Positions 4,652 through 53,390 of a stretch of DNA of 64,000 bases are shown piece by piece. The stretch comes from Sphingopyxis sp. USTB-05. Its GTDB lineage: Bacteria > Pseudomonadota > Alphaproteobacteria > Sphingomonadales > Sphingomonadaceae. The notes under the pieces were generated by a model that did not search any database, was not told the origin of the DNA, and saw nothing but the letters and a program-made list of their open reading frames with translations. Location: contig NZ_CP084712.1 of NCBI RefSeq assembly GCF_023822045.1, positions 2,728,001-2,792,000 on the forward strand, in the 5' to 3' direction. A program made the translations under genes and the position numbers. The first letter of the stretch is position 1. Every line of letters begins with the position of its first letter.

Positions 4652-6330
4652 GAAAGATGCTCGAAACGCTCCAGCCGCTTGGCCGCGCGCTGATGCTGCC
4701 GATCGCGGTGCTGCCGATCGCGGGTCTGCTGCTGCGCATCGGTCAGCCCGACCTGCTCGACATTGCCTTCATCTCGGCTGCGGGCGCCGCGATCTTCGAG
4801 AATCTGGGCATCCTCTTCGCGATCGGCGTGGCGGTCGGTTTCGCGCGCGACGGCAATGGCGCCGCAGCGCTTGCGGGCGTCGTCTGCTATCTGGTCACCA
4901 CCACCGGCGCCCAAACCTTTCTGACCGCGCCGCTCGACGTGGGCGCAGGCTTGCCCGAGGCGGCAGCGGCCTTGGCCGCGAAAAATTGGGCGCTGACACA
5001 GATCGACAAGCTGGAGGTCCCGATCGGCATATTGTCGGGGCTGATCGGCGGCAATTTCTACAACCGCTTCGCGACCATTGCGCTGCCCGAATACCTCGCC
5101 TTCTTCGGCGGCCGGCGCTTCGTGCCGATCGCAAGCGGTGTCGCGGGGCTGCTGCTCGCGGCCGTGCTGGGCTATGGCTATGCGCATATCAGCGGCGCGA
5201 TCGATGCCGCGAGCCGTACGGTCGTCGAAAGCGGCGGCGCCGGCCTGTTCGTCTATGGCGTGCTGAACCGGCTGCTCATCGTCACCGGTCTCCACCACAT
5301 CATCAACAATGCCGCCTGGTTCGTCGTCGGCGATTTCCAGGGAGCGACTGGGGATTTGCGCCGCTTCTTCGCCGGCGACCCCAATGCCGGCGCGTTCATG
5401 TCGGGGTTTTTCCCGGTGATGATGTTTGGCCTGCCGGCCGCGTGCCTCGCGATGTATCATGAAGCGCGGCCCGAACGACGCAAGGCGGTTGGCGGCATGC
5501 TCTTCAGCCTTGCCTTTACCAGCTTTCTGACCGGCGTGACCGAACCGATCGAATTCACCTTCATGTTCGTCGCGCCGTTGCTCTACGCGATCCACGCGCT
5601 GCTGACCGGAGTCGCAATGGCGCTGATGAACGCGCTCGACGTAAAGCTCGGTTTCGGATTCTCGGCGGGGCTGTTCGACTATGTGCTGAACTTCAGCCTC
5701 GCGACGCGGCCGTGGATGCTGCTGCCGGTGGGGGCCGTATATGCAGTGCTTTATTACGGCCTGTTCCGCTTCTTCATCCGCCGTTTCGACCTCGCGACGC
5801 CCGGACGCGAAAAGGGCGTGGTCGCCGAAACCGCCACTGCATCGGCGGGCGGCGCGCGGGGCGAAGCCTTTGTCGCGGCGCTCGGCGGCGCGGCCAACCT
5901 GGTCAGCGTCGATGCCTGTACCACGCGCCTCCGCCTGATCGTCGCCGACCAACAAGCGATCGACGACGCCGCGCTGTCCTCGCTCGGCGCGCGCGGCATC
6001 ATCCGCCCGTCGAAAAAGGCGGCGCAGGTGGTGCTCGGACCGATTGCCGACCTGGTCGCCGAAGAGATCCGCGGCGCGCTGGCGTGGAGCGGCGCCGCGG
6101 TCGCTGCCACACATCGGCCGGTGATCGCCGGCAGCACCGATGCTTCCGGGCTGCCCGCCGAAGTCGTTGGCGCGCTCGGCGGCGACGCCAACCTCCGCAC
6201 CGTTCACGCGCTTCACGGCCGCTTCCGCGTCGAGCTCGCCGACCCCGCGCGCGTCGACGAGGGCGCTCTCGTACGGATCACGCACGGGATCGCCCGCCCG
6301 CAAACCGACGTCTGCCACATCCTGCTATGA
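4648..6330 (+). CDS. nagE: GlcNAc-specific PTS permease EIICB (with a second EIIB-like domain)
   Basis: 560 residues. The N-terminal ~385 residues are the EIIC membrane channel of the glucose/GlcNAc family (LMLPIAVLPIAGLLLRIG near the start, then GLHHIINNAAWF and TEPIEFTFMF). A linker leads to an EIIB domain whose phosphorylated Cys424 sits in VDACTTRLRL. A second EIIB-like domain follows at about 495-560; its aligned segment reads VHALHGRFRV, so the cysteine is replaced by Leu522 and the domain cannot carry phosphate there. It imports GlcNAc and phosphorylates it, using phosphate from the fused carrier upstream. The ATG at 4648 overlaps the preceding stop. An open extension upstream lies inside that gene and is not used. 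Confidence 0.93.
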   Translation: MRKMLETLQPLGRALMLPIAVLPIAGLLLRIGQPDLLDIAFISAAGAAIFENLGILFAIGVAVGFARDGNGAAALAGVVCYLVTTTGAQTFLTAPLDVGAGLPEAAAALAAKNWALTQIDKLEVPIGILSGLIGGNFYNRFATIALPEYLAFFGGRRFVPIASGVAGLLLAAVLGYGYAHISGAIDAASRTVVESGGAGLFVYGVLNRLLIVTGLHHIINNAAWFVVGDFQGATGDLRRFFAGDPNAGAFMSGFFPVMMFGLPAACLAMYHEARPERRKAVGGMLFSLAFTSFLTGVTEPIEFTFMFVAPLLYAIHALLTGVAMALMNALDVKLGFGFSAGLFDYVLNFSLATRPWMLLPVGAVYAVLYYGLFRFFIRRFDLATPGREKGVVAETATASAGGARGEAFVAALGGAANLVSVDACTTRLRLIVADQQAIDDAALSSLGARGIIRPSKKAAQVVLGPIADLVAEEIRGALAWSGAAVAATHRPVIAGSTDASGLPAEVVGALGGDANLRTVHALHGRFRVELADPARVDEGALVRITHGIARPQTDVCHILL

Positions 6331-6356
6331 CTTAGCGCGGTCGCCTTCGGCCCTGG

Positions 6357-6773
6357 CTAGTCCCAATCGAGCGCGCCCTTTTTCCATTCGTAGATGAAAC
6401 CTACCGTCAAGATGCCCAAAAAGACCATCATGGCGCCCCATGCTTCCCAGCCGAGATCGTCGACGACGATGGCCCAGGGAAAGAGGAAGGCAGCCTCAAG
6501 GTCGAAAATGATAAACAGGATCGCGACCAGATAGAAACGGACGTCGAACGGCTTGCGCGGTGCTTCGAAGGCGGGAAAGCCGCACTCATATTCGGAGAGT
6601 TTCTCACTGTCCGGCGCGTGAGCGCCGGTGACGCGCGACACCGCCATCGGCAAGAAGACGAACAGGAGCGACAGCGCCAGCGCGACGCCCATGAAGATCA
6701 GGATCGGAAGATAGTCGAGCAACAGCGTGGACGACGACGCCAGATTGGCGCCGGATACGGATTGGGACGGCAT
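6357..6773 (-). CDS. nuoA: NADH-quinone oxidoreductase subunit A, isolated copy
   Basis: 138 residues with three membrane helices (about 21-45, 78-102, 110-128) and the NuoA signatures [29 protein letters not shown] and [14 protein letters not shown]. The last is the usual alphaproteobacterial C-terminus, so the protein looks intact and functional as a membrane-arm subunit of complex I. The ATG at 6773 follows AAGGAGG at about 5 bp. Unusually, no nuoB follows: the next gene downstream is nagE on the opposite strand, converging 26 bp away. The other complex I genes must lie elsewhere. The leader resembles that of the neighbouring exporter gene. Confidence 0.92.
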
Positions 6774-6868
6774 GGCGGCCTCCTTCGAAGTCGCCGGGCC
6801 GTCCCGGACCTGATGCCGACGCACCCGCCCATGCCAGAGCCGAACGCGCCGGGGAGGACGTGGCCTCG
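6774..6868 (-). promoter_or_regulatory. nuoA leader with tandem hairpins, same motif as the gdx leader
   Basis: Read on the minus strand, a GAGG/CCUC hairpin (6854-6867, loop containing CCACGU) is followed after 46 nt by a CCGGG-ACGG-CCCGG hairpin (6794-6807), then GAAGGAGG and the nuoA ATG. The same two hairpins, identical in sequence, precede gdx. The ACGG loop on a GGG/CCC stem matches what is known of guanidine-II (mini-ykkC) riboswitches; the first hairpin fits less well (ACGU rather than ACGR). Function in front of nuoA is unknown. Confidence 0.6.
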
Positions 6869-6888
6869 CTGATTTTGGTCAACGCCGG

Positions 6889-7209
6889 TCAGACGGACGA
6901 TGAAAGCTTCATCATCACCAGTCCGCTGACGATCAGAAGCGCGGCGGCGATCCGCATCGCATTCGCCTGTTCACCGAGGACGAAGATGCCGACAAGAAAC
7001 GCCCCGACCGCGCCGATCCCGGTCCAGATCGTGTAAGCGGTGCCGAGTGGCAGCGACTTCATGGATAAGGAGAGCAATGCGAAGCTTATAATCATCGCGC
7101 CGATCGTGATGGCGGTCGCGCCAGGGCGCGTGAAACCCTCGGACTGCTTCATCGAATAGGCCCACACGATTTCGAAAATTCCGGCGATCGTCAGATAAAT
7201 CCAGGCCAT
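6889..7209 (-). CDS. gdx: SMR-family guanidinium exporter (Gdx/SugE)
   Basis: 106 residues, four predicted membrane helices, the standard small-multidrug-resistance size. The sequence follows the SugE/Gdx subgroup rather than EmrE: Glu13, the conserved coupling acid, lies in GIFEIVWAYSMK, and the third-helix segment MKSLPLGTAYTIWTGIGAVG is typical. Members exchange guanidinium for protons across the inner membrane as dimers. The ATG at 7209 is chosen because AAGGAGG lies about 5 bp upstream; a TTG five codons earlier is unlikely. The leader holds a candidate guanidine-II riboswitch, which supports the guanidinium assignment. The tRNA-Trp gene lies upstream on the same strand. Confidence 0.9.
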   Translation of the reverse strand: MAWIYLTIAGIFEIVWAYSMKQSEGFTRPGATAITIGAMIISFALLSLSMKSLPLGTAYTIWTGIGAVGAFLVGIFVLGEQANAMRIAAALLIVSGLVMMKLSSSV

Positions 7210-7287
7210 GACAGCCTCCTTCAAAGGCTGCCGGGCCGTCCCGGACTTGGGAAACCCGCATCATGTGCAGGCGAGGACGTGGCCTCT
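7210..7287 (-). promoter_or_regulatory. Candidate guanidine-II (mini-ykkC-like) riboswitch for gdx
   Basis: On the minus strand two hairpins lie between tRNA-Trp and gdx. P1 is GAGG/CCUC at 7273-7286 with ACGU in the loop. P2 is CCGGG-ACGG-CCCGG at 7231-7244. They are separated by 28 nt. A third short stem, CAGCC/GGCUG, would bury the AAGGAGG ribosome site. Known guanidine-II RNAs have two hairpins with ACGR loops, a variable linker, and control SugE-type exporters; P2 and the context fit, while P1 deviates at one loop base. Confidence 0.65.
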
Positions 7288-7298
7288 GGAAGGCGGCC

Positions 7299-7374
7299 TG
7301 GCAGGGGCAGCAGGACTCGAACCCGCGACCCTCGGTTTTGGAGACCGATGCTCTACCAACTGAGCTATACCCCT
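7299..7374 (-). tRNA. trnW: tRNA-Trp (anticodon CCA)
   Basis: 76 nt on the minus strand including an encoded CCA end (7299-7301). The acceptor stem AGGGGTA pairs with TGCCCCT with one G-U. The D-arm has AGCTCAGTTGGTAGAGC, the anticodon loop reads CTCCAAA, giving CCA for tryptophan, and the T-arm has GGGTTCGAGTCC. The discriminator is G. The gene is followed after 11 nt by the first hairpin of the gdx leader. Confidence 0.97.
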
Positions 7375-7387
7375 AGGCCGGAGTGCG

Positions 7388-7416
7388 CCACTAGCCGGAT
7401 TGCAGGGGCGGGGCAA
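7388..7416 (-). promoter_or_regulatory. Putative promoter of tRNA-Trp
   Basis: On the minus strand TTGCCC (7411-7416) and TAGTGG (7388-7393) are separated by 17 bp, which would place the transcript start about 7 bp before the mature tRNA 5' end. It lies in the 92-bp divergent gap shared with the DMT transporter gene. Only the spacing and the -35 hexamer support it. Confidence 0.4.
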
Positions 7417-7466
7417 GAGGGATGACGGGTTGCGCGTGCGGGCGGGGCTGATATGCGCAATTTTGC

Positions 7467-8435
7467 ATGAGCGCAGCGCCGTCCCCCGCCCGGTCCCCGT
7501 CCCCGGCCCCCGCCCCGCCCGACGGGCCTCCGCAAAATTATCTGGGCGGAATCGGATTGCGCCTGCTCGCGATGGTCAGCCTGTCGCTGATGTTCGTGCT
7601 CGTCAAAATGATCGACGCTGCCGATATCCATATCGTCGAGAGCCTGTTCTGGCGCCAGGCGCTCGTCCTGCCCTTCCTGCTGGTCTGGGTACAGGCGACC
7701 GGTGGCCTGTCGTCACTGAAGACGCAGCGCATCGGCGCGCATGCACGGCGGATGCTGATGGGCCTGACCGGCATGGCTTGCAATTTCGGCGCCATGATCC
7801 TGCTGCCGATGGCGGAAGCGACGACGATCAGCCTGTCGGTGCCGATTTTCGCGGTGATCTTTGCGGCGATCCTGCTGGGCGAGGCGACAGGGTGGCAGCG
7901 ATGGAGCGCGGTGATCATCGGCTTTGTCGGCGTCCTCGTCGTGCTCGACCCGATTTCGGGCTTTGCCGGCGGCTTCGGCGGAACGCATGGCGTCGGCACG
8001 CTGATTGCGCTCACCGGCGCGGTCATGACGGCGCTGATCACGATTGCGGTACGCGACCTTGGCCGAACAGAAAATGCGGGGACGATCGTTTTCTGGTTCA
8101 GCCTCTTGTCCATGATCCCGCTCGGGATCGCCCTGCCCTTTGTCTTCACGCCGCATGACGGCCGCGAATGGCTGCTCCTGGTCGGCCTCGGCTTTCTTGG
8201 CGCCGTCGTCCAGATGTCGCTGACCGGCGCGCTGCGCCTCGCCCCCGTGTCGGTCGTCATCCCCATGGATTATTCAAGCCTGCTATGGGCGATCGCCGCC
8301 GGCTGGTGGTTCTTTGGCACGCTGCCCGCCGACACGACCTGGGTCGGTGCCCCCTTGATCATCGCGTCGGGCCTGTTCATCGCCTGGCGCGAGCATCGCC
8401 GCCATATCGACCGGCCCAAGGAGGTTGCTGCATGA
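7467..8435 (+). CDS. EamA/DMT-family membrane transporter
   Basis: 322 residues with a Pro/Ala-rich cytoplasmic start (residues 1-22) and about ten membrane helices arranged as two EamA repeats, as in drug/metabolite transporters of the RhaT/YdcZ type. Recognisable segments are SLSLMFVLVKMID in helix 1, MAEATTISLSVPIFAVIFA in repeat 1 and VSVVIPMDYSSLLWAI in repeat 2. It acts in the inner membrane; the substrate cannot be read from the sequence. The ATG at 7467 is the first in frame, with no good ribosome site. The stop overlaps the following GST-like gene by ATGA, so the two are co-expressed. Confidence 0.85.
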   Translation: MSAAPSPARSPSPAPAPPDGPPQNYLGGIGLRLLAMVSLSLMFVLVKMIDAADIHIVESLFWRQALVLPFLLVWVQATGGLSSLKTQRIGAHARRMLMGLTGMACNFGAMILLPMAEATTISLSVPIFAVIFAAILLGEATGWQRWSAVIIGFVGVLVVLDPISGFAGGFGGTHGVGTLIALTGAVMTALITIAVRDLGRTENAGTIVFWFSLLSMIPLGIALPFVFTPHDGREWLLLVGLGFLGAVVQMSLTGALRLAPVSVVIPMDYSSLLWAIAAGWWFFGTLPADTTWVGAPLIIASGLFIAWREHRRHIDRPKEVAA

Positions 8436-9634: not shown

Positions 9635-9898
9635 GATGTCTGTTTTGGCGTGGGAGCAGGCGTTTGCTACTATGTTGTACCCCGGCGAAGGCCGGGGCCC
9701 AGGGCTTTCGAAAGCCGAGCTGTGCGGATTGCCGCCCTGGACCCCGGCCTTCGCCGGGGCACACATTACCGTCGTTAGTGTCCGGTCGTTTCTTCGCCTT
9801 GTCATCCCGGGCTTGACCCGGGATCCCGCTTTTTGACGCACTCACCGACTTCTAGCGGGACCCCGGATCAAGTCCGGGGTGACGAGGATGTGGAGGGC
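9635..9898. repeat. Composite extragenic palindromic repeat, copy 1
   Basis: About 264 bp that recurs in the same orientation at 53122-53390 with small differences. It begins GATGTCTGTTTTGGCG and contains two nested palindromes. One is built on CCCCGGCGAAGGCCGGGG and its inverse around 9678-9760. The other runs from GTCATCCCGGGCTTGACC to the inverse GGATCAAGTCCGGGGTGAC around 9799-9883. Both palindrome types are of the REP-like class common in sphingomonads. No coding potential is evident. Confidence 0.9.
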
Positions 9899-18837: not shown

Positions 18838-18895
18838 GTCGCACTCCCGTCGTCGTTGACACGGCAAGGCGCGGCCCGGTGCCGCCCTGTTGCCA

Positions 18896-19085
18896 TGCCC
18901 CCTCTGTCACGGGAACCTGAGAGTTTTCCTCCATATATTATGGAGTTACCCCTTCGGTGGTTCCGGCAATGAACAGCCGGAACGCTTTCCAGAGTGTCCG
19001 TTCCAGCCTGCGCGGTCCTGCTGACCTGAGAGTTTCCGGGGCGGTTGCTCCTTCGGTGGTGGGGTTTCCCCCACGCTCTCCCGCG
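18896..19085 (-). promoter_or_regulatory. Tandem glycine riboswitch
   Basis: On the minus strand two glycine aptamers lie head to tail before gcvT. The first (about 19022-19085) has GGGAGAGCG, CCACCGAAGGAGCAA and AAACTCTCAGG. The second (about 18896-18995) has GGACACTCTGGAAAGCG, CCACCGAAGGGGTAA and AAACTCTCAGG. The conserved CGAAGG..GCAA/GTAA and ACTCTCAGG elements are hallmarks of this RNA. Tandem glycine riboswitches usually turn on glycine catabolism when glycine is plentiful, which fits the gcv genes downstream. Confidence 0.96.
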
Positions 19086-19151
19086 CGGCCGGTCGAATCT
19101 CTTGCGAGGCCCGACAGACGTTGCGAGCCTTGGCGCTGCCCCTTTAAGGAG

Positions 19152-53121: not shown

Positions 53122-53390
53122 GACGTCTGTTTTGGGGTGGTGAGCGGGCGTTTGCTACTAGGTTGTACCCCGGCGAAGGCCGGGGCCCAGGGCTTTAGAA
53201 AGCCGAGTTATGCGGATTGCCGCCCTGGACCCCGGCCTTCGCCGGGGAACTCATTACCCGCGTTAGTGTCCGGTCGTTTCTTCGCTCTCGTCATCCCGGG
53301 TTTGACCCGGGATCCCGCTTTTTGACGGCACCGGCACGCTTCACGAAATAGCGGGACCCCGGATCAAGTCCGGGGTGACGATATGGAGAG
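53122..53390. repeat. Composite extragenic palindromic repeat, copy 2
   Basis: Same unit and orientation as 9635-9898. It starts GACGTCTGTTTTGGGG, with the palindrome pair CCCCGGCGAAGGCCGGGG / CCCCGGCCTTCGCCGGGG around 53167-53248 and the pair GTCATCCCGGGTTTGACC / GGATCAAGTCCGGGGTGAC around 53291-53381. The central bases (GGGCTTTAGAAAGCCGAG, then GGATTGCCGCCCTGGACC) are shared nearly unchanged. No gene is evident within it. Confidence 0.9.

Follow-up and report, generated by a model that had tools for sequence, protein, structure and literature searches.

Results

Two leaders, gdx and a second nuoA lie downstream of tRNA-Trp

The window analysed in this study is a 64,000-nt stretch of the genome of Sphingopyxis sp. 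USTB-05 (contig NZ_CP084712.1), and the locus described here lies on its minus strand. The locus starts with a tRNA-Trp gene with a CCA anticodon (7299..7374), which ends 12 nt before the first of two tandem-hairpin leader RNAs. Copy 1 consists of the P1 hairpin GAGG-CCACGU-CCUC with a hexaloop (7273..7286; GAGGCCACGTCCTC at 7286-7273), a 28-nt linker that contains a predicted hairpin (7245..7272), and the P2 hairpin CCGGG-ACGG-CCCGG with the canonical guanidine-II tetraloop (7231..7244; CCGGGACGGCCCGG at 7244-7231). A putative SD-masking hairpin, GGCAGCC...GGCUGUC (7210..7232), overlaps the last two bases of P2, and the SD sequence AGGAGG (7220-7215) is followed by the gdx ATG at 7209. The gdx/sugE gene (6889..7209) encodes an SMR transporter of 106 aa that matches PF00893 with 99.9 bits; its best NCBIfam model is SugE NF008512, at 116.6 bits against an equivalog cut-off of 126. 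Copy 2 follows gdx and is built from the same P1 hairpin, GAGG-CCACGU-CCUC (6854..6867; GAGGCCACGTCCTC at 6867-6854), a 46-nt linker, again with a predicted hairpin inside (6808..6853), the same P2 hairpin, CCGGG-ACGG-CCCGG (6794..6807; CCGGGACGGCCCGG at 6807-6794), a putative SD-masking hairpin, GGCG...CGCC, that is interrupted by an A-C mismatch (6774..6795), and the SD sequence AAGGAGG (6785-6779). It precedes nuoA2 (6357..6773, ATG at 6773), an orphan NuoA/ND3 paralogue of 138 aa with an Oxidored_q4 domain and without an adjoining nuoB.

The initial annotation had reported two minus-strand leaders with a common P1, P2 and SD sequence before the ATG, and this layout is present. Its linker lengths of 28 and 46 nt are right when counted to CCGGG and become 26 and 44 nt when counted to GTCCGGG. 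The gene behind the second leader is a nuoA, as had been claimed, but it is a second, orphan paralogue, and the other nuoA, followed by nuoB, lies elsewhere. The pattern GRGGCCACGNCCYC occurs 27 times in the 4.68-Mb genome with at most one mismatch, and its only exact matches are the two window copies. By eye, no such leader was seen at the genome's three further gdx-like genes.

From where is the leader transcribed? A search of 6300-7560 revealed no sigma-70-like promoter pattern. Because P1 begins so close to the CCA end of the tRNA and no promoter pattern was found, gdx may be read through from tRNA-Trp as a co-transcript, with the tRNA gene as a possible source of the leader RNA. The tRNA-Trp 3' end is also found upstream in 10 of 12 nuoA2 loci and is absent, by eye, at the other two (L039 and L280). 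The same interval contains three terminator-like patterns, one across the gdx start and two inside genes, against 1.2 expected.

Elsewhere in the window, a tandem glycine riboswitch with two aptamers (59.4 and 51.2 bits) is located at 18894-19093 on the minus strand. Long GC-rich hairpins occur at 9672-9766 and 53160-53254, where miRNA models match below threshold on both strands; these hairpins are probably a dispersed inverted-repeat element.

Leader architecture and predicted switching

In alignment A1, 99.6% of the P1 and P2 cells form pairs, and P1 alone pairs in 99.1%. At two of the four P1 pairs, both partners are exchanged (A-U to G-C in five sequences and G-C to A-U in one), and this covariation fixes the P1 register and the 6-nt loop. 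The first loop is atypical, as the initial annotation had noted, with CCACGU in place of ACGR. Covariation, which was to be checked in both stems, is present in P1 but not in P2, whose stem does not vary at all in A1. The P1 hexaloop CCACGU is invariant in 56 aligned leaders, and ACG is invariant in both loops and provides the complementary CG for loop-loop pairing; this invariance of the loops and of P2 is partly by construction because the leaders were selected with a pattern that required CCACG and the P2 core.

Together with the bases that follow it, the final GG of P2 can pair with the region around the ribosome site (GGCAGCC/GGCUGCC); GGCUCC/GGAGCC and GGCAGUC/GACUGCC are among the covariants. 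The mean contiguous helix of this SD hairpin is 7.25 bp, compared with 6.62 bp for shuffled partners (0 of 500 shuffles as high, in a shuffle that ignores the relatedness of the sequences). In the nine copy-2 leaders, the contiguous helix is 4 bp in seven and 6 bp in two. The SD hairpin excludes the base of P2, and the same P2-excluding logic is proposed for guanidine-II in the accessible text of PMC5486947. Excerpts of PMC12186494 and PMC5486947 present guanidine-II as a translational ON switch of guanidine genes, and an SD-masking hairpin that overlaps P2 fits such a switch.

P1 also has the potential to pair with P2, which is the fold preferred by RNAalifold, and the predicted minimum of copy 2 combines P1:P2 pairing with the SD hairpin. 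Copy 1 is more stable than its shuffles (z -2.74), whereas copy 2 is not (z 0.92). The P1:P2 duplex energy averages -15.2 kcal/mol in 55 of the 56 variants (one skipped) and -7.6 kcal/mol in 33 of 43 other leaders, a set that includes the Bosea CCACGA leaders and from which ten were skipped. A designed OFF state made of the P1:P2 duplex stays a suggestion, because CCACGU ranks sixth in duplex strength among the 64 NNACGN loops, 438 of 4096 hexaloops are stronger and P2 is invariant.

The leader as a guanidine-II homologue

Is the leader a guanidine-II RNA? The two window copies score 17.0 and 15.2 bits with RF01068, below the Rfam gathering threshold of 32, and in place of two ACGR tetraloops they carry ACGG in the 5-bp stem of P2 and the hexaloop CCACGU in P1. 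None of 14 variant loci passes the RF01068 threshold. The RF01068 scan is insensitive, with only 15 of 45 other gdx loci passing before gdx, and three of these 15 (L081, L086 and L113) show no such leader by eye. Failure in Rfam was rejected as proof of a new RNA class, because most of the canonical leaders scanned fail as well. An RF01068 search of the own genome gave ten matches, none above the cut-off; the best one (22.6 bits, L001) lies inside a coding sequence, probably accA judging by its protein, and was regarded as a chance match. The linker range quoted for guanidine-II in the portion of PMC7544219 at hand is 7-40 nt, which accommodates the 28 nt of copy 1 and is exceeded by the 46 nt of copy 2. 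Copy 1 is placed at the ribosome site of the putative guanidinium exporter gene gdx.

The loci of 80 gdx relatives were taken from GTDB genomes. The variant leader stands at the gdx start in most sphingomonads and in Roseicella and Siccirubricoccus. In the same place, a P1 whose loop is ACGR or AACGR is combined with a P2 of the same type in Cupriavidus, Acinetobacter, Stenotrophomonas, Janthinobacterium and others, and likewise in two sphingomonads (L063 and L071). The Bosea hairpin GAGG-CCACGA-CCUC (L062, L066 and L075) has a loop of intermediate sequence. Neither leader type was seen at a few gdx loci, such as L081, L086 and L113.

The covariance model R1 was built from the 56 variant leaders only, 47 before gdx and nine before nuoA2. 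Over 398 Pseudomonadota genomes, R1 gave 24 matches in 23 genomes (E <= 0.05). Of 17 new loci, 16 were read (L305 being the seventeenth): nine have a canonical P1, six have the variant loop and belong to other alphaproteobacterial families, and one (L304) is without such an RNA; gdx is in the locus in 15 of the 16. In 246 Sphingomonadales genomes, strict filters left 24 matches in 22 genomes, and the 23 that were read (all except L183) stand before gdx in its start-codon context (21) or before nuoA2 (two, G000 and G024). A second P1 shape, with a bulged stem such as GCGG-N-GA around the CCACGU loop, was observed by eye in other sphingomonads (L172, L174, L177, L181 and L182).

The covariance search proposed in the initial annotation thus had a split outcome, as RF01068 stays below threshold and R1 finds the RNA before gdx and nuoA2. 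The suggested fit to guanidine-II survives as homology, given the placement before gdx and the cross-finding by R1, but not as a member above the Rfam threshold with an unaltered P1 loop. Because the leader occupies the same place before gdx and a model of variants alone retrieves canonical leaders, its sequence identifies it as a guanidine-II (mini-ykkC) homologue with a changed P1 loop, and as a new sub-branch of guanidine-II defined by that loop. According to the available part of PMC7736828, initial assays detected no binding of guanidine by the sugE-linked motifs GGAM-2 to GGAM-6, and GGAM-5 is found in Alpha- and Betaproteobacteria; the leader might be one of these non-binding motifs, with which it was compared by description only.

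nuoA2 is a conserved second nuoA in Sphingopyxis

The genome contains two PF00507 genes. The other nuoA is located at G000:C1:2025606, is followed by nuoB and is 69% identical to nuoA2. NuoA2 has the Oxidored_q4 domain and the conserved ECG loop. No NuoB is encoded within the loci of gdx-linked NuoA, whereas NuoB is present in every housekeeping NuoA locus listed. R1 matches (E <= 0.01) occur in 58 of 80 genus genomes, and 12 of these contain at least two matches (G000, G001, G003, G005, G013, G024, G027, G748, G749, G761, G762 and G769). Exactly these 12 genomes have a second, separate PF00507 gene, and by coordinates one RNA lies directly before the second nuoA in all 12. In G764, the two PF00507 matches are neighbouring fragments of a single disrupted gene; G756, which is 77% complete, has no PF00507 gene.

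Conservation of the leader before nuoA, on which the initial annotation had staked its case, is evident from these 12 of 12 genomes, in which copy 2 precedes nuoA2. The outcome that was to speak against it, namely stems without covariation, no conservation before nuoA and a recent chance duplication of upstream sequence, did not occur. The two copies carry separate, diverged linkers. nuoA2 is under purifying selection, with a dN/dS of 0.074 over 55 pairs from 11 genomes (without G762); for the housekeeping nuoA, the value is 0.032 over 36 pairs from nine genomes. The nuoA2 copy of G762 (locus L043) may be damaged, since its reading frame departs from the NuoA sequence just before the end. In G748, the gdx-RNA-nuoA2 unit lies elsewhere (L280), and a decayed gdx with an RNA remnant is found beside a tRNA end at L281 (C1:3617500-3619500).

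A second origin of the gdx-nuoA linkage

The linkage of gdx and nuoA is found outside Sphingopyxis. At two Janthinobacterium loci (L084 and L118), gdx is followed by nuoA after an 11-nt gap, behind a leader with two ACGG hairpins that is below the Rfam threshold at both. Among 116 Burkholderiaceae genomes, five (G060, G283, G326, G369 and G386) have a second NuoA that is 92-100% like that of L084, and gdx adjoins it in all five; G303 and G372 show a second, weaker NuoA match. The Janthinobacterium-type gdx-linked nuoA has a dN/dS of 0.073 (six genomes, 15 pairs). In a NuoA tree of 84 rows (80 different) and only 118 columns, the Sphingopyxis NuoA2 falls in a sphingomonad clade and the Janthinobacterium type in a betaproteobacterial clade, each with a support of 100/100. 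Because the two types fall in separate clades, the gdx-nuoA linkage arose twice independently according to this tree. When 203 genomes from the class of G060 were scanned with PF00507, the matches listed included genomes with two or three NuoA genes. The best plasmid NuoA match was rejected as a gdx-linked case because it sits in a nuo operon. In six plasmid regions with gdx, whose annotation is incomplete, neither nuoA nor atpB is annotated next to it. In five plasmid loci (L311-L315), gdx lies beside genes for PLP enzymes, homoserine dehydrogenase, aldehyde dehydrogenase, a B3/4 protein or ArgP; presumably these neighbourhoods serve canavanine/hydroxyguanidine catabolism.

The gdx-linked NuoA proteins of both families have a common residue change. 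In the middle of helix 3, housekeeping NuoA has a Glu (AEL/AEF) and gdx-linked NuoA has I or V; in the Y-E-W motif, gdx-linked NuoA has E and housekeeping NuoA has A or I; and position 94 is A versus T (11 and 6 gdx-linked sequences, 9 and 2 housekeeping sequences). The AE-type housekeeping NuoA occurs in 12 of 12 Sphingopyxis carriers and was seen in two of six carriers of the other lineage. The Glu shift may mark ancestry rather than adaptation, because Y-E-W is the ordinary housekeeping form in nearly all other Alphaproteobacteria examined. Within the genus, three genomes (G746, G766 and G771) have a Y-E-W housekeeping NuoA and no nuoA2, and many genomes with the same housekeeping NuoA type as the nuoA2 carriers live without nuoA2.

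atpB lies behind guanidine-II RNAs

A second proton-machine gene, atpB, is found behind guanidine-II RNAs. In two of four Bosea loci (L062 and L066), gdx is followed by a guanidine-II RNA (42.3 and 41.7 bits) and atpB; the gene after atpB in L066 encodes DUF4139 and is not atpE. No atpB lies within reach in the other two Bosea loci (L075 and L077). The gene order is the opposite at each of the three Afipia loci (L065, L079 and L090), where a guanidine-II RNA (37.4, 33.2 and 36.4 bits, respectively) precedes atpB and a leader and gdx follow; L065 is flanked by genes for a tRNA_edit protein and an acyl-CoA dehydrogenase. On a Phyllobacterium plasmid (L307), atpB lies behind a guanidine-II RNA of 34.0 bits; within 4 kb the annotation shows neither gdx nor another atp gene, and a reading frame of 24-25 aa between the RNA and atpB overlaps the atpB start. 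The RNAs before atpB in all three genera are above the Rfam threshold, and these atpB genes are outside the atp operon. The Afipia and Phyllobacterium form of AtpB has a distinct motif, RPxSHSVRLFAV, which is present in this or a near form in 120 of the 120 best listed relatives of the Afipia type. Microvirga sp. TS319 has two AtpB proteins by source names (P0138 and P0226). The AtpB of Sphingomonas parapaucimobilis (L308) was rejected as an orphan because it belongs to a normal atp operon, and the SMR gene downstream has no guanidine-II match.

The 80 gdx loci contain at least nine second guanidine-II-like RNAs, all of which lie before nuoA (four) or atpB (five). This count combines our own scan of all 80 loci with Rfam on 62 of them and is a minimum because the scan misses some leaders. 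In the open-licence literature, nothing was found that joins guanidine, riboswitch and nuoA; sugE and nuoA occurred together only in papers unrelated by title, and guanidine, riboswitch and atpB only in papers seemingly unrelated by title.

Discussion

We propose that an ON switch of the guanidine-II branch controls both gdx and nuoA2 and that NuoA2 replaces NuoA in complex I with benefit to the cell, a reading that we consider somewhat probable. Without ligand, the 3' end of P2 would pair with the ribosome-binding site, P1 could pair with P2, and gdx and nuoA2 would be silent. Guanidinium would stabilize the P1-P2 loop-loop complex, free the ribosome site and turn on both genes. Gdx would export guanidinium, and NuoA2, with its different glutamate layout in the third membrane helix, would replace the housekeeping NuoA in complex I. 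The resulting enzyme may be less disturbed by guanidinium or better at sustaining the proton-motive force that is spent by Gdx. The sequences show the homology and architecture of the leader, its covariation, the linkage of the genes, the selection on nuoA2 and the independent recurrence with nuoA and atpB; that guanidine is the ligand of the variant, that NuoA2 enters complex I and that the cell benefits is what we infer. The initial annotation had offered a choice between guanidine control of a complex I subunit and a distinct leader RNA. The comparisons favour the former, with the amendment that the putative target is a spare NuoA outside the nuo operon.

The recurrence of two proton-machine subunits beside gdx or behind its RNA suggests a response that would protect or retune proton translocation when guanidinium accumulates. 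As judged from this gene arrangement, guanidine most likely switches on, along with the exporter, substitute subunits for complexes that translocate protons, and we infer target replacement. More tentatively, and with somewhat less than even confidence, the riboswitch-controlled swap of NuoA or AtpB may form a second arm of the guanidine response, next to export and breakdown, in which the spare subunits would be target-protecting variants and guanidinium would poison proton paths. The accessible portion of PMC7614227 describes a biguanide that acts in the quinone channel as an inhibitor of complex I and favours the deactive state, a state with a disordered ND3 TMH1-2 loop. Inhibition of oxidative phosphorylation and complex I by compounds derived from guanidine was reported long ago, as excerpts of PMC6514102 and PMC7614227 mention.

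Does the variant still sense guanidine? A changed ligand, for example some other cation, guanidine-like or quaternary, that this SMR transporter exports, would account for a hexaloop that is invariant in 56 leaders (albeit rows picked for CCACG), as expected of an altered pocket, for the score of Gdx below the SugE equivalog cut-off and for the GGAM-2 to GGAM-6 results excerpted from PMC7736828. We nevertheless regard such a change as unlikely, given that P2 retains the full canonical loop and P1 keeps the CG for loop-loop pairing. Moreover, RF01068 matches above threshold precede atpB in Bosea, Afipia and Phyllobacterium, so the proton-machine link itself points to guanidine. The one weak terminator-like pattern across the gdx start would suit a leader that acts as a protein-binding or antitermination element instead of a riboswitch, but the guanidine-II homology and the SD-masking hairpin make such an element extremely improbable.

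The spare subunits could also serve another end or none. NuoA2 and its AtpB counterpart might retune energy coupling, raising or rebalancing the proton-motive force while Gdx runs, and confer no resistance to guanidinium. We know of no precedent for a one-subunit swap as coupling control, and this explanation does not tell why the lineages chose different complexes. Both putative spare subunits do belong to proton-translocating machines, and the NuoA change moves a membrane glutamate in a subunit that forms the E-channel with other subunits, as described in the available text of PMC10212512; we hold retuning to be unlikely. Alternatively, the second leader may have been copied downstream of gdx by chance, before a hitch-hiking gene without any link to guanidine. 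The long identical stretches common to the two copies, the restriction of the unit to 12 of 80 genus genomes and the altered nuoA2 end in G762 would be expected in that case. Such a chance duplication is unlikely, and we give it very little weight, because copy 2 is kept with a diverged linker in all 12 nuoA2 genomes, nuoA2 is under purifying selection, Janthinobacterium has gdx-nuoA independently and the second RNAs near the 80 gdx loci, at least nine, all precede nuoA or atpB.

If guanidine-induced subunit replacement is true, it suggests that the guanidine response may swap membrane parts of proton machines as well as export the compound, and the spare NuoA and spare AtpB would name proton-translocating membrane complexes as the target of guanidine. 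This bears on the cause of guanidine toxicity in bacteria and on the abundance of guanidine riboswitches among them. It would also tie bacterial guanidine biology to the guanidine-derived inhibitors of oxidative phosphorylation and complex I covered in parts of PMC6514102 and PMC7614227. The natural NuoA/NuoA2 pairs are offered for probing how guanidine-derived cations act on complex I.

Compared with the guanidine-II family RF01068, the leader has the same two tandem GC-rich hairpins with ACG in both loops, ACGG in P2 and a linker, the same position at the gdx/sugE ribosome site and an alternative hairpin that overlaps P2 and the ribosome site, as PMC5486947 proposes in the text available to us. 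It differs in its 6-nt P1 loop, with an extra CC before the A and a U in place of a purine after ACG, in its long P1:P2 complementarity, in its second copy before nuoA2 and in its score below the Rfam gathering threshold. Like the GGAM motifs, as described in part of PMC7736828, it is a conserved leader upstream of sugE; the other genes downstream of GGAM-5 are said there to be without a precise predicted function, unlike nuoA. NuoA2 resembles NuoA/ND3 (PF00507) in scoring 126 bits over the family model, in its YECGF loop motif and in its Y-E-W end, which matches PDB 8qby chain A and the Nad3 chains 8e73_3M and 7a23_J. In contrast to that family, it is encoded alone beside gdx, behind a copy of the putative riboswitch and outside the nuo operon. 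The AtpB proteins, in turn, match ATP synthase subunit a (PF00119) over its full length and retain its RLF motif, and they differ from that family in that atpB is located outside an atp operon behind a guanidine-II RNA.
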